Below the pieces are notes generated by a model. That model was not told the origin of the DNA. It saw only the letters and a list, made by a program, of their open reading frames with translations, and did no database searches. The translations under genes and the position numbers were made by a program. A stretch of 44,369 nucleotides of DNA from Bacteroidales bacterium (lineage in GTDB: Bacteria; Bacteroidota; Bacteroidia; Bacteroidales; UBA932). Where the stretch lies: positions 1-44,369 of the forward strand of contig JAFQHE010000034.1 of NCBI GenBank assembly GCA_017398125.1. Reading direction: 5' to 3'. Position 1 is the stretch's first letter. Every line of letters starts with the position of its first letter. Of the stretch, positions 39,617 to 44,369 are shown piece by piece.

Positions 39617-40744
39617 CTATTGGTTTTCCAATTCAGTAAATGCGGTAATGAACTGGTCTGCAATCTCTTTTGTGATGCAAAGCGGTGGCAGCAGACGTAT
39701 GACATTTGCACCTGCACCTCCTGTAAAGATGTGTTTCTCAAACAGCAGGCGGTTTCTAAGTGTTGTGAAGCCTTCGTTCAGCTCAATTCCTATCATAAGC
39801 CCCTTGCCTCTGAGCTCCTTGATAGCCTTATGCCCCTTGAGCTGGTCCATAAGGTATTGGCCGACAATTGCTGCATTCTCTATAAGATTCTCTTCCTTCA
39901 TCACTTTAAGGACAGCGATTGCTGCTGTGCAGGCGAGATGGTTTCCACCGAATGTGGTACCCAACATACCATAAGATGCCTCTATTTTAGGAGATATTAT
40001 TACTCCCGACAATGGAAATCCGTTTCCAATACCTTTCGCAACAGTTATAATATCTGCCTTAACCCCGCTATACTGATGTGCGAAGAATTTGCCGGTACGG
40101 CCATATCCCGACTGGATCTCATCAAGGATAAGTAAAGTTCCGGTTTCATCACATATCTTCCTCAAAGAGTTGAGGTAGTTGCTGTCGGGAACAAAAATGC
40201 CTGCAACACCCTGGATACCTTCAATAATAAGTGCGGCATATTCTCTCTTCTCCAACTCCATGCGGGCTGCTTCAATATCATTTAGCGGAACAAATGTAAC
40301 ATTGTTGTTCTTGTTGAACTCAGCCTGAATCTTTGGATTGTCTGTAGCCTCCACAGCGCCAGATGTCCTGCCGTGAAAAGCTTTTTTTATGGCAAGGATT
40401 TTCTTCCTTCCTGTATTGAAAGAGGCAACCTTAAAGGCATTTTCATTTGCTTCTGCTCCGGAATTGCATAGGAACAGATTGTAGTCAGGATAGCCGCACA
40501 TCTCTCCAAGCTCCTCTGCTAACCTCTTCTGAAGTCCATTCTGGACTGCATTTGAGTAGAAACCCAAATTGTCAACCTGCTCCTTGAGCATTTTGTTATA
40601 TGTAGGATGGCAGTGTCCAATGCTGATTACAGCATGACCGCCATACAGATCAAGATACTCATTTCCCTCTTTATCCCATATATGGCATCCCTGACCCTTT
40701 ACAGGCTCAATGTTCCATAGCGGATATACATCAAATAATTTCAT
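39617..40744 (-). CDS. argD: N-acylornithine aminotransferase
   Basis: PLP enzyme converting N-acylglutamate semialdehyde to N-acylornithine with glutamate as donor. 375 residues. DLYGGHAVISIGHCHP is the typical N-terminal part, FLCNSGAEANENAFKVA binds phosphate, LLILDEIQSGYGRTGKFFA carries the PLP-ring Asp, and ITVAKGIGNGFPLSG holds the Schiff-base Lys. Acyl specificity is taken from the pathway context. It lies 42 bases after argC. Confidence 0.94.
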   Translation of the reverse strand: MKLFDVYPLWNIEPVKGQGCHIWDKEGNEYLDLYGGHAVISIGHCHPTYNKMLKEQVDNLGFYSNAVQNGLQKRLAEELGEMCGYPDYNLFLCNSGAEANENAFKVASFNTGRKKILAIKKAFHGRTSGAVEATDNPKIQAEFNKNNNVTFVPLNDIEAARMELEKREYAALIIEGIQGVAGIFVPDSNYLNSLRKICDETGTLLILDEIQSGYGRTGKFFAHQYSGVKADIITVAKGIGNGFPLSGVIISPKIEASYGMLGTTFGGNHLACTAAIAVLKVMKEENLIENAAIVGQYLMDQLKGHKAIKELRGKGLMIGIELNEGFTTLRNRLLFEKHIFTGGAGANVIRLLPPLCITKEIADQFITAFTELENQ

Positions 40745-40786
40745 GACAAACTCTTAATAAAACAAATACAAATTGTATCCGGACAA

Positions 40787-41785
40787 TTAAAATGCGCTCG
40801 GTTTCAATTTCAGTCCCATTGTCCGGTCAAGACCAAAAATCATATTCATATTCTCGACAGCCTGACCGCTTGCGCCTTTTACAAGATTGTCTATTATTGA
40901 AGAAATATGAATGTATCCATTATGTAACTCTATGTGCAGAAGTATTTTGTTGGTGTTTACAACCTCTTTAAGACTTATTCCTTTCTCTGAAACAAATACA
41001 AAAGGAGAATCCTTATAGTATTGGCTGTATAGCTCGACAGCATCTTCCAATGAACTCTTTACTGTTCCGTCCGCACTCTTGTATCCATCCCATTTTGTGT
41101 ACACACTGGCAAATATTCCTCTTGGAAAATCACCCCTTAATGGAACGAAATTAACTTGTGGGGCCTCTTTGCCCTGGAGTCTTGTCAATGTGCGTTTTAT
41201 CTCACCAAGGTGCTGGTGTGTAAAGAGTTTGTATATTGAAAGGTTATTGTCCCTGTAGCTGAAATGGGTGGTTTCACCAGGTTTTTTACCAGCTCCTGTA
41301 GAACCGGTAATGGCAGTTACATGAACTTCATCATTAAGGATACCGGCACTTGCCAATGGTACAATTGCTGTCTGTATTGCTGTTGCAAAGCATCCAGGGT
41401 TGGCAATATAATCCGCTTGAAGTATCTCTTCCTTGAATGTATCTGTAAGGCCGTACACAAAATGTTTTCCATTGTAGTCCGGATCAAGCCTGAAGTCATT
41501 TCCAAGATCTACAATCTTGCATTTGTCGGGAAGAGAGGTAGTGTCAAGAAATTCTCTTGAAAGTCCGTGACCGAGGCATAGAAAAACCACATCAGGATCG
41601 GTAGGCTTGTCAGTAAAGACAAGGTCAGTCTCTCCAATCAGATCCCTATGGACATCACACACCTTTTGTCCGACACTTGTGGTGCTAAGTACAGACTCAA
41701 TCTCAACCATTGGGTGGTTGAGCAGTATCCTGATCAGCTCTCCTGCTGTATATCCGGTAGCTCCGGCAATTGCAGCTTTTATCAT
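40787..41785 (-). CDS. argC: N-acyl-gamma-glutamyl-phosphate reductase
   Basis: NADPH-dependent reduction of N-acylglutamyl phosphate to the semialdehyde. MIKAAIAGATGYTAGELIRI is the Rossmann start; the active-site cysteine is in YIANPGCFATAIQTAIVPL. TGSTGAGKKPGETTHFSYR and FVPLRGDFPRGIF are conserved in the family. 332 residues. It follows argG by 28 bases. Confidence 0.95.
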   Translation of the reverse strand: MIKAAIAGATGYTAGELIRILLNHPMVEIESVLSTTSVGQKVCDVHRDLIGETDLVFTDKPTDPDVVFLCLGHGLSREFLDTTSLPDKCKIVDLGNDFRLDPDYNGKHFVYGLTDTFKEEILQADYIANPGCFATAIQTAIVPLASAGILNDEVHVTAITGSTGAGKKPGETTHFSYRDNNLSIYKLFTHQHLGEIKRTLTRLQGKEAPQVNFVPLRGDFPRGIFASVYTKWDGYKSADGTVKSSLEDAVELYSQYYKDSPFVFVSEKGISLKEVVNTNKILLHIELHNGYIHISSIIDNLVKGASGQAVENMNMIFGLDRTMGLKLKPSAF

Positions 41786-41813
41786 TATATTCTCCTTTTT
41801 CAGACTTTAGAAT

Positions 41814-43013
41814 TTATTCAACACTCTTCTCCTCATGCAATGAGTAGTAGATTTTCAATGGATTTGCAAGCACTTTTGTAAATCCGACAACATCCCTGCC
41901 GGTATATGATTTGTTAATCTCTCCGTATTCACCGAATTTTGAACTCATCATATCATATTTGCTCTTGCAACCAAGTACAAAGAAGTTATAAGGTCTTAGA
42001 AGAATGTCAACTGTTCCGCAAACGCTCTCCTGTGTGCTGTCCATAAAGGCCTCCATGTCTCTCATAATTGGTTCAAGATACTGTGCTTCATGCATCAGCT
42101 GACCATAGAAATTGCCAATCTGGTCTTTCCAGTTAAGCTGGTTCTTTGTAAGTACATGTTTCTCCAACAAGTGGTGTGCCTTTACTATAATAAGAGGTGC
42201 AGCAGCCTCAAATCCTACACGACCCTTGATTCCAATGATGGTATCTCCAATGTGTATATCTCTTCCCACACCATACTGGTTGGCAATATCTGCCAACTCC
42301 CTTATCAACTGTACAGGTGACATTTTTTTACCATTAAGGGCAACAGGCTCGCCTTTTTCAAACTCAATTGAAACCTTCTCTTCTCCACTTTTCTCTGCAT
42401 GGTGAATATAAGCCTCTTCTGGAAGGTATCCATCTGATGAAAGTGTTTCAACACCTCCAATACTTGTACCCCAGATTCCCTGGTTAATGGAGTATTTTGA
42501 TTTCTCCCAGCTGAAGTTGAAACCATGTTTTACAAGGTAATCTATCTCCTCCTTGCGGCTCAATGCAAGTTCGCGGATAGGTGCAAGAATCTCTACCTCT
42601 GGAGCCAGAACCTCAAATACAAGGTCAAAACGTACCTGGTCATTGCCCGCACCTGTACTTCCGTGTGCAACATAATCTGCACCAAGTTTCTTTACATGTT
42701 TCAACACCTCCAAAGCCTGGAATACTCTCTCAGAACTTACTGATAGCGGATATGTTGCATTTTTTAGGATATTTCCAAAGATAAGATATTTGATTCCCTT
42801 GTTGTAATATGTCTCAACCGCATCAATGTTAGTGTGTGATGCAGCGCCCAAGTGAAGGGCTCTCTCCTCAATCCTTTTGGCCTCTTCCTCAGTAAAACCA
42901 CCTGTGTTTACCATAACGGTATGAACTTCAAGACCTTTTTCATTCTTTAGATAGGGAACGCAGAAAGAGGTGTCCAAACCTCCACTGAATGCTAGAACAA
43001 CTTTTTGTTTCAT
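41814..43013 (-). CDS. argG: Argininosuccinate synthase
   Basis: Joins citrulline and aspartate with ATP. The PP-loop is VVLAFSGGLDTSFCVPYL at the N-terminus. YVAHGSTGAGNDQVRFDL and WGTSIGGVETLSSDGYLPEE are typical. 399 residues, normal. The gene follows the GNAT gene by 58 bases; the two precede the acyl-intermediate genes, an order recalled for Bacteroides arginine clusters. Confidence 0.95.
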   Translation of the reverse strand: MKQKVVLAFSGGLDTSFCVPYLKNEKGLEVHTVMVNTGGFTEEEAKRIEERALHLGAASHTNIDAVETYYNKGIKYLIFGNILKNATYPLSVSSERVFQALEVLKHVKKLGADYVAHGSTGAGNDQVRFDLVFEVLAPEVEILAPIRELALSRKEEIDYLVKHGFNFSWEKSKYSINQGIWGTSIGGVETLSSDGYLPEEAYIHHAEKSGEEKVSIEFEKGEPVALNGKKMSPVQLIRELADIANQYGVGRDIHIGDTIIGIKGRVGFEAAAPLIIVKAHHLLEKHVLTKNQLNWKDQIGNFYGQLMHEAQYLEPIMRDMEAFMDSTQESVCGTVDILLRPYNFFVLGCKSKYDMMSSKFGEYGEINKSYTGRDVVGFTKVLANPLKIYYSLHEEKSVE

Positions 43014-43071
43014 GATATATAATTTTTAAACTATTTTCGGTTATGTTGTATTTTCTTATTCTCGATGACTT

Positions 43072-43791
43072 CTATTTTTCATCCTCTTGCCTGTTGCCTT
43101 TGCTGTGCAAGCTCTTGTTTATTGTCTTGAACGGATATGCCACACCTTTACCGACCAAAGAGAGGATATTGGGAAAATGATGTCCTTTATTTTTCTCTGA
43201 ATCTTGGGATATTCCGTTTTTTTCAGATGCCTCAAGCTCCTTCAATCTCTCCTTATTCTCTTTTGTCGGGTCATATAAAAGGGCTGTACAAAGGCACATT
43301 TTATAATTGTTCCTTTGCAGAATGTCAAAATTTCTGCAACCTTCACACCCTTTCCAGAACTCTTCATCTGTAGTAAGTTCAGAGAATGGCACAGGTCTGT
43401 ATCCAAGATCTGAATTAATCTTCATGACAGCAAGACCGGTAGTTATGCTGAAAATTTTTGCAAATGGGAACATTGTTCTTGACAATTCAAAAATTTTCTT
43501 CTTGATAGCTCTTGCCAAACCTGTTTTTCTGAACTGATGTGCTATAATAAGACCTGAATTTGCAACAAATTTGGTGTGGCTCCAGGTTTCAATATACGCA
43601 TATCCTGCAAATGTACCATCTTCTGCAAGTGCAATTACAGCCTTGCCGTCTCTCATCTTCTCTTTTACATACTCCGGGCTACGTTTGGCAATACCTGTAC
43701 CACGCTCCTGGGCAGAAATATACACGAGCTCGCAAATCTCCTCAGCATATTTTACGTGGGACTCATCTGCCACATAAATATTGACTTTCAT
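43072..43791 (-). CDS. GNAT acyltransferase, candidate N-acylglutamate synthase
   Basis: First gene of the arginine operon. The GNAT core runs from about residue 40 to 125: GKAVIALAEDGTFAGYAYIE, then the acyl-CoA region LIIAHQFRKTGLARAIKKKIFEL. Next come conserved cysteines (CEGCRNFD, then MCLCTALLYDP) and a charged tail of about 65 residues with no clear fold. No argJ or classical argA is in the operon. In Bacteroides thetaiotaomicron, fitness data reported a GNAT gene at this position as the missing N-acylglutamate synthase; this protein fits that role. Succinyl- or acetyl-CoA use cannot be told from sequence. Confidence 0.8.
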   Translation of the reverse strand: MKVNIYVADESHVKYAEEICELVYISAQERGTGIAKRSPEYVKEKMRDGKAVIALAEDGTFAGYAYIETWSHTKFVANSGLIIAHQFRKTGLARAIKKKIFELSRTMFPFAKIFSITTGLAVMKINSDLGYRPVPFSELTTDEEFWKGCEGCRNFDILQRNNYKMCLCTALLYDPTKENKERLKELEASEKNGISQDSEKNKGHHFPNILSLVGKGVAYPFKTINKSLHSKGNRQEDEK

Positions 43792-43842
43792 CCTGATAAT
43801 TAATTAAATGGTTACAAAAAAAGGAAAACTCCAATTAAAATT

Positions 43843-43876
43843 GTCCAGACATAAAAATCTTGTGCACCATCTGGAC
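43843..43876 (-). promoter_or_regulatory. Leader hairpin 3 of the arginine operon
   Basis: GTCCAGA (43876-43870) pairs with TCTGGAC (43849-43843) around a 20-base loop. Downstream is AATTTTAATT, only a weak U-rich tail, and a run of seven T follows at about 43822-43816. It might be the terminator or sequestering hairpin of an attenuator, but it is not a textbook terminator. Confidence 0.35.
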
Positions 43877-43913
43877 CAAGGCATAATGATTATGGAAAAT
43901 CTTAAGAATTGCC

Positions 43914-44000
43914 TTATCGTCGGACTGAAACAACCACGCCGCATTGGCGTCGGACACGCCAATGACTATTTGACTGATATATGTGATTGCCTTTTTTCAT
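43914..44000 (-). CDS. Arginine-rich leader peptide of the arginine operon
   Basis: A 28-codon frame from ATG 44000-43998 to TAA 43916-43914, eight bases after a -7 promoter box and about 120 bases before the first biosynthetic gene. Its second half reads WRVRRQCGVVVSVRR then stop: five Arg (CGT, CGA, CGC, CGA, CGA) in the last 14 residues, two directly before the stop. The Arg codons lie inside alternative hairpins. This is the expected layout of a leader peptide that senses charged arginyl-tRNA by ribosome stalling. I do not know of a described arginine leader of this kind in Bacteroidetes. The frame could be chance; codon conservation across relatives would settle it. Confidence 0.5.
   Translation of the reverse strand: MKKGNHIYQSNSHWRVRRQCGVVVSVRR
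43936..43964 (-). promoter_or_regulatory. Mutually exclusive hairpins in the arginine leader
   Basis: Leftward, CATTGGCGT (43964-43956), loop GTCCG, ACGCCAATG (43950-43942) is a perfect nine-pair hairpin. The same ACGCC can instead pair with the next GGCGT (about 43940-43936) across AATGC. Segments 1:2 and 2:3 thus compete, and both overlap the Arg codons of the leader peptide. Confidence 0.55.
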
Positions 44001-44008
44001 ATTCCGCG

Positions 44009-44043
44009 CAAAGGTAAGATTTTTATTAAAAATAACCAACAAA
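44009..44043 (-). promoter_or_regulatory. Promoter of the arginine operon
   Basis: Read leftward, TACCTTTG (44016-44009) is an exact -7 match. A TTTG is present at 44043-44040 with 23 bases between, two longer than usual; a GTTG at spacing 20 is an alternative -33. The predicted start is about 44002-44005, right before the leader ATG. Confidence 0.6.
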
Positions 44044-44369
44044 ATAGCCCCAAAATCAAACTTTATACAAAAGACCTGATCAAAATACTCTTCCCTTATT
44101 ATATATAGGTATACTTGTATATATACTTTGACTTATATTTATCCCGACAGAATCTTTCCATTTTTACATCTTGTATGAGTATCCCTATTTTAAGTTGTTT
44201 GTTCATTTACCAACCAGCTGCAATTTTGCATTTTCCTCTTTTGGATATAACAGCATTTATTTGATTTCATGAGCCTGGCAGTGGAATTCTATTATCCCAG
44301 ATATGCCTTCAATTTATTTTGAAAAAAGTTTACAAAAAGTTACAGATTGTAATGTTTCTGTAATTTCCT
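44044..44369. other. AT-rich intergenic end of the window
   Basis: No gene found on either strand. It contains one TGTCGGGA octamer (44142-44149, leftward), an AT palindromic patch around 44100-44125 and a small inverted repeat ACAGA/TCTGT near 44343-44362. No argR or other regulator gene is visible here. Confidence 0.6.

Follow-up and report, generated by a model that had tools for sequence, protein, structure and literature searches.

How transcription of an arginine operon is controlled is usually answered with the repressor protein ArgR, for which arginine operons are the textbook case. The locus described here raises the question anew, as its arginine operon lies in a genome (95.55% complete) with no ArgR match and is preceded by a short, Arg-rich ORF. 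The window, that is, the whole stretch of 44,369 nucleotides that was analysed, carries this leader and the operon on its minus strand. The leader is probably a ribosome-mediated arginine attenuator that does the job of ArgR. The arginine-sensing part of this reading is well supported, and the output step is its least certain part.

The leader ORF and the operon downstream

The features of the locus, all on the minus strand, are as follows.

44016-44009, minus: -7 promoter box TACCTTTG, Bacteroidota type TAnnTTTG
44000-43914, minus: leader ORF of 28 codons, MKKGNHIYQSNSHWRVRRQCGVVVSVRR and stop, from ORF reading
43988-43983 / 43937-43932, minus: outer helix P1, AATCAC / GTGGTT, enclosing the first Arg cluster, from a stem scan
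43964-43956 / 43950-43942, minus: hairpin H0, perfect 9 bp, CATTGGCGT / ACGCCAATG, loop GTCCG, on the first Val-Arg-Arg
43955-43947, minus: putative sensing site GTC-CGA-CGC (Val-Arg-Arg), with CGA as codon 17, conserved in relatives
43925-43917, minus: second Arg cluster GTC-CGA-CGA, immediately 5' of the leader stop codon, from the sequence
43915-43910 / 43883-43878, minus: hairpin H1 over the leader stop, AAGGCA / TGCCTT, from the sequence
43876-43870 / 43849-43843, minus: third stem, GTCCAGA / TCTGGAC, followed by AATTTTAATT, from the sequence
43791-35268, minus: presumed controlled operon GNAT-argG-argC-argD-argF'-argB-argE/dapE-argH, from gene calls and annotation
43072-43791, minus: GNAT acetyltransferase gene, first of the operon, from gene calls

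TAnnTTTG is taken here to be the Bacteroidota -7 promoter consensus, and TACCTTTG is identified as a -7 box on this ground. A sequence-only reading of the same DNA had described an exact -7 box with an ATG eight bases further on and a 28-codon frame with an Arg-rich end. Both are present on the minus strand as it described them: the ATG, at 44000-43998, lies 8 nt 3' of the box, and the frame ends in VRRQCGVVVSVRR. Its designation of the genes downstream as an eight-gene operon is likewise a fair reading, since the intergenic gaps from GNAT through argH are 0-59 nt each; argF' is of the N-acyl-ornithine carbamoyltransferase type. The GNAT protein is 239 amino acids long, and in many relatives similarity to it stops at about residue 180-190. 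At the other end of the locus, the last 141 bases of the window (44229-44369) are identical to the first 141 of another contig of the same assembly, C62, on the opposite strand. Most same-genus contigs compared also end 1.0-1.4 kb upstream of argG, which points to a repeat upstream of the leader.

Leaders and their CGA codon in relatives

The genus sample consisted of 39 genomes, 35 with the GNAT gene and 4 without, and the leader ORF is found in 32 of the 35. These genus leaders start 12-18 nt after the first base of the -7 box, with ATG or, in part of the genus, GTG as start codon, and encode peptides of 19-30 residues, for example, MKKGNHIYLSNNHWRVRRQCGVVVIVRR, MKREKYILQFDTEYWHVRR, MKKSGHIFNRYFSFGVRRRR, MKGSKNRLQFVSNVRRVRS and VTEKIFIFHSVRNYLRVRS. 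The wider sample comprised 80 named loci, the best 80 of 536 relatives, among which the closest are Bacteroidales MAGs, several of them ruminant-gut by title. By the same rule a leader is present in 54 of the 80, including Proteiniphilum acetatigenes (MKIYFSHTHYPKATVLVRRCF), Petrimonas, Seramator thermalis and Bacteroidales bacterium CF; 7 of the 54 duplicate genus leaders. Overall, 86 of 115 loci have a leader, giving 77 distinct leaders, as counted by a finder that demanded TAnnTTTG and an in-frame VR or RR and is therefore biased toward this form; the box begins 12-23 nt before the leader start in all 86 loci by construction of the search. The 29 loci without a leader by the finder include L078, whose leader, MENKTRIIPCFMRSWRVRR and stop, was missed by it and recognised by eye, and L091 and L099, which are cut by contig ends. 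Three loci of the Dysgonomonadaceae type, L107, L109 and L125, have no leader despite argG lying next, and their genomes have no ArgR match.

The combination of features is specific to this place. Across the 80 named loci (908,512 strand-bases), 88 sites combine a -7 box with an ORF of 15-30 codons after it, and the strict motif, in which a CGA at codons 15-20 is preceded by a codon for Val, Ile, Leu, Phe or Ala, is present at 54 of them, all at the leader and one per locus. No strict motif was found away from the leader in the same strand-bases. In the window's own genome a loose pattern matches 18 places and a backwards control pattern 37; a box with a Val-Arg ORF is found at two of the 18, namely the window's leader and one other place, where the ORF sits out of frame within a long coding sequence.

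Length differences between leaders are whole codons. The residues 5' of the Arg site are variable and the codon-position bias is weak; this variability is as expected of a putative sensor ORF, although it does not prove translation of the leader. The alignment that had been proposed as a check shows that relatives retain start codon, frame and Arg codons and differ in the other codons. The original observation is real, and the comparison makes the case for it much stronger.

CGA is found at codons 15-20 in 76 of the 77 distinct leaders, at codon 18 in 50 of these, and at codons 16-19 in 73 of the 77; the sole exception, L046, has CAA in its place. This is the rarest Arg codon in the long ORFs of the window (12 of 472, 23 ORFs), and its share of Arg codons in three other sets is 9.7%, 5.4% and 10.5%. 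An Arg-Arg tandem is present in 68 of the 77 leaders and CGA-CGN in 53, so neither is universal among them. In most leaders the Arg cluster stands one to four codons before the stop. The long, window-type leaders have it about 12 codons before the stop, with a second Arg codon or cluster near the stop. Across the 77 leaders the final Arg codon occupies one of the three positions immediately preceding the stop. Among the tRNA genes of the window's own genome (27 tRNA places in an incomplete assembly), those identified for Arg have the anticodons CCT, ACG and CCG, and CGA should therefore be decoded by the ACG (inosine) tRNA.

The codon before CGA (window region 43955-43950) has C as its third base in 74 of 76 leaders and is GTC in 68. 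GTC is not a preferred Val codon, and the C ending is not explained by the peptide. GTCCGA is invariant in alignment A2.

Conservation of the site might also reflect the peptide itself. Fungal AAP and bacterial SpeFL are nascent peptides said to arrest the ribosome on their ligands, and the leader peptide (His-Ile ... Val-Arg-Arg) could similarly bind free arginine in the tunnel and arrest the ribosome. The narrow placing of CGA at codons 16-19 and the presence of His-Ile near codons 6-8 in several groups would suit such a sensor, but the residues leading up to the site are variable and their codon-position bias is small, some leaders have Ile, Leu, Phe or Ala in place of the Val before CGA, and what is conserved is a rare codon that the peptide does not need. 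A nascent-peptide sensor is accordingly considered improbable beside an attenuator in which the Arg codons themselves are sensed.

RNA helices and the output step

The nine-pair hairpin, the alternative ACGCC/GGCGT pairing, the H1 stem and the GTCCAGA/TCTGGAC stem named in the sequence-only reading are all present in the window. The competition between helices that it drew from them is not conserved, as other leaders have a shorter stem over the Arg codons and the third stem differs in L041, the nearest relative, in which CCCCA/TGGGG replaces GTCCAGA/TCTGGAC at the same place (two genomes, by eye). H1 retains 5 bp in L041, also by eye. The fold of the window leader, at -52.2 kcal/mol, has a z of -0.78 and is equalled by 38 of 200 shuffles; with a fold this ordinary in the single leader, the argument has to come from the comparison of relatives.

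RNAalifold, run unguided on 19 leaders of the Dysgonomonadaceae type (alignment A1), gave a start-codon stem, H0, H1 and H2, with H0 as a shorter stem around TCCGA that hardly varies. Over H0, H1 and H2 together 94.7% of cells are paired, against 29.8-45.1% when the helices are slid. Their covariation scores 0.220, compared with 0.140 in shuffles (reached by 0 of 500), and there are 15 double-change cells, falling in H1 and H2, against 6.6 (reached by 2 of 500). Two of the five covariation measures fail to exceed the shuffles, namely the count of pairs showing double changes (3 against 3.0) and that of additional pair types (13 against 13.5). On A2 RNAalifold returned no pairs, perhaps because H1 is gapped there. 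In A1 (19 sequences, L110-L140), TCCGACGATGCTTTT is the same in every sequence as far as the stop codon, beyond amino-acid need.

An exhaustive stem scan of 15 window-type leaders ranked P1 first, in which codons 5-6 pair with a segment past CGA. The 3' segment begins 15 nt past CGA in 9 of the 15, the same distance as in the window, and 16-18 nt past it in 3 of the 15; L046 and L058 are anchored to another place in this count. In P1 85.6% of cells are paired, double changes are found at 4 of 6 pairs against 1.8 in shuffles (reached by 25 of 500), and the covariation score is 0.410 against 0.263 (0 of 500), figures that are flattering because the helix was chosen on the same alignment that was used for counting. 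The compensatory changes looked for in the stems thus appear on some measures and fail on others. The 60 nt past the stop fold on the whole more stably than shuffles, with a mean z of -1.83 and 57 of the 77 leaders, which are related and not independent, below -1; the window's own 60 nt have a z of +0.70. No mutually exclusive, conserved antiterminator/terminator pair was found among these helices, and P1, H0 and H1 are largely compatible.

Helices that covary on part of the measures, together with nucleotides kept beyond the needs of the amino acids (the C before CGA in 74 of 76 leaders and the invariant GTCCGA of A2), are what might be seen in a structured RNA, riboswitch- or T-box-like, that binds arginine or tRNA and in which the ORF is incidental. 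However, the helices and their spacings differ among groups while the ORF is kept, and no family of Rfam 15 matches at gathering score in window 40000-44369 or in 14 loci, so that this explanation is very unlikely. A covariance model, R1, built on the Dysgonomonadaceae type and searched in 18 genomes for further regulated genes showed none. It matches at E < 0.04 in 6 genomes, each time at the arg leader, and weakly (E 0.7-0.9) in 3, with no match in 10, the window's genome included, so that the window's genus lies beyond its reach. That the leader ORF merely assists translation of the next gene by re-initiation, with no sensing of arginine, is hardly credible: leader genes adjacent to structural genes have been proposed as translation aids, with a Bacteroidetes peak at 11-14 bp (PMC4833913), but the leader stop lies 84-189 nt from the GNAT start in leader-bearing loci, and Arg codons are conserved ahead of arginine genes.

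For an arginine attenuator, the question is then how the position of the ribosome might be turned into output. The sequence-only reading had named the lack of a textbook terminator with a long U-run as its weak point, and on checking none is present in the window. An intrinsic terminator (GC-rich hairpin and U-run) between leader and first gene is not a general feature of the 77 leaders: hairpins past the stop with at least 5 T in an 8-nt tail occur in 28 of 77 (36%), against 25.8% of control windows. A terminator scan gave no site in any of four other leaders tried and a single site in the window, inside the ORF; sigma-70 and terminator scans were uninformative for the window leader, as was the terminator scan for the four others. 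The 10 nt after the hairpin contain a mean of 8.6 pyrimidines in leaders of the Dysgonomonadaceae type, 7.6 in those of the VRS type and 6.9 in a third group; the window's group, with 5.5, has no pyrimidine-rich tail, and two small groups have 5.7 and 4.5, against a background of 57%. The tails are not distinctly U-rich, and only for some members is intrinsic termination plausible. As a candidate terminator, the small hairpin H2 ahead of the GNAT start was rejected, since most groups show no U-rich tail there (by eye).

Spacing between the Arg codons and the first helix past the stop divides the leaders. Outside the Dysgonomonadaceae type this helix begins 13 nt or less from the last Arg codon in 41 of 46 leaders, and a stalled ribosome would therefore cover part of it. 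Such a spacing is found in 1 of 31 leaders of the Dysgonomonadaceae type; in the other 30, H1 starts 15-23 nt past the last Arg codon, beyond the footprint of a stalled ribosome, and one positioned at the stop codon would cover it instead, as is reported for the hairpin past the leader stop of Salmonella speF (PMC6386406). Occlusion of H1 by a stalled ribosome is thus ruled out as the sole general mechanism.

The attenuator is envisaged as follows. Transcription would start just before the almost leaderless ORF, and the ribosome that translates it would stall at the rare CGA and neighbouring Arg codons when Arg-tRNA is scarce. Its position (Arg codons or stop codon) would select among the helices, P1 and H0 at the Arg codons and H1 at or after the stop, and the choice of helix would decide whether RNA polymerase, or the message, proceeds to GNAT-argGCDF'BEH. 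Low arginine would presumably give higher expression. Premature transcription termination at or just past H1, intrinsic in some members and elsewhere possibly dependent on Rho, is ranked first as the output, and altered mRNA decay or downstream translation second. A switch by stalling at Arg codons or by termination at the leader stop had been proposed from the window alone; its Arg-codon leader proves conserved, while neither a textbook terminator nor the window's own helix competition stands behind it.

ArgR, known leader systems and spread in the phylum

That arginine operons are generally controlled by ArgR had been remarked, and this is answered by the absence of an ArgR match in 37 of the 39 genus genomes and in all 32 that bear the leader (0 of 32). 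In the two genus genomes with ArgR, argR precedes GNAT by about 0.2 kb (at most about 0.24 kb) and the leader is absent; genome G012 has the GNAT gene and neither leader nor ArgR. In several other families of the order, which are sister lineages, argR stands immediately upstream of the same GNAT gene. The exclusion of leader and ArgR is not absolute. Both are present in 13 of the 47 leader-bearing genomes searched outside the 32 of the genus (3 of 13 and 10 of 34), one of these 13 leaders, that of L078, having been read by eye, and all 13 are of the Dysgonomonadaceae type. In a sample of 148 genomes from the phylum, the GNAT gene is found in 61, an ArgR match in 55 and both in 2, with 33.4 bits in five copies in one and 26.9 bits in a 312-aa frame in the other; these two matches exceed the cut-off but are weak, and they were judged not to be ArgR. 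The exclusion of GNAT and ArgR in this sample is weak evidence because both follow phylogeny.

Classical attenuators (trp, his, leu) consist of a promoter-proximal short ORF with codons for the product amino acid near its stop, and of hairpins in the leader. The present leaders resemble them in the short ORF, the Arg codons near the stop, the hairpins and the operon for the same amino acid downstream. They differ in being specific to arginine, in an apparently almost leaderless start, judged from the box, and in having neither a consistent U-run terminator nor a conserved antiterminator/terminator pair.

Leader-peptide attenuation is old as a kind, and speF and rbf are already known to have Arg-codon leaders (PMC6386406, PMC13009471). 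In Salmonella, orf34 (speFL) precedes speF and has two consecutive Arg codons that are sensed by ribosome pausing, with a hairpin just past the leader stop, and low arginine favours expression (PMC6386406). The likeness lies in the Arg codons and the hairpin near the leader stop; speFL differs in its target, an ornithine decarboxylase, in its Arg pair at codons 12-13 of 34, and in its DUF2618 (PF10940) peptide (PMC6386406). Pfam, PF10940 included, gave no match for the two leader peptides tested here. In S. aureus, rare Arg codons in the rbfL leader gauge arginine supply, as is proposed here, but the paused ribosome blocks the ribosome-binding site of the next gene and lowers expression, and the target is a biofilm regulator (PMC13009471). 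The carA leader of Pseudomonas aeruginosa also encodes a peptide before a gene of the arginine/pyrimidine route; it belongs to a different phylum and a different gene, its attenuation is tied to pyrimidines, and arginine acts transcriptionally (PMC4997734). Within Bacteroidota, leader-type control is represented by Bacteroid-trp RNA, RF01692 (PMC2864571), for which there is no match in window 40000-44369 or in 14 loci. For F. psychrophilum there are clues to leader-peptide attenuation before amino-acid operons, no arginine operon being named in the accessible text (PMC9723704). No arginine-operon attenuator in Bacteroidota was found in the literature searched, a body that mostly excludes subscription papers, so that an earlier prediction is possible.

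Arg-rich ORFs ahead of GNAT extend beyond the order. Upstream of GNAT in 60 loci of the phylum sample, ORFs with Arg-Arg are present in 51 of 60 (control strand, 33 of 60) and ORFs with CGA-CGN in 15 of 60 (control strand, 8 of 60); with control counts this high, the phylum counts alone prove little, and in this survey CGA as sensor is not shown beyond Bacteroidales. By eye, 21-residue ORFs that start with MQ and end in PRRR-stop recur in 12 of the 60 loci (L183-L242), and a further Arg-rich family before GNAT ends in RRP[IY][LM]PRA-stop. Loci of Flavobacterium and Paenimyroides have ...LRRCV...RARA-stop.

These recurring families suggest a phylum-wide system. In this broader reading, which is held tentatively and seems somewhat more likely to fail than to hold, Bacteroidota would possess an arginine attenuator in place of ArgR, with near-leaderless leader peptides in many lineages and an Arg cluster adjacent to the stop, formed by the rare CGA in Bacteroidales and by Arg pairs or triplets elsewhere. 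Its peptide forms would include VRR-stop, VRRCF-stop, RRVRS-stop, LRRCV..RARA-stop, RRPIMPRA-stop and PRRR-stop, and its output would work without a U-run terminator, perhaps through Rho.

The missing U-run raises the question of how such leaders end transcription, if they do so at all. The near-fixed use of the rarest Arg codon leads to a sharp and testable claim, that the choice of codon acts as the sensor. If true, an arginine attenuator of this kind, conserved where ArgR is mostly lacking, would mean that the two modes of control are interchangeable, and it would account for the control of arginine synthesis in many Bacteroidota.
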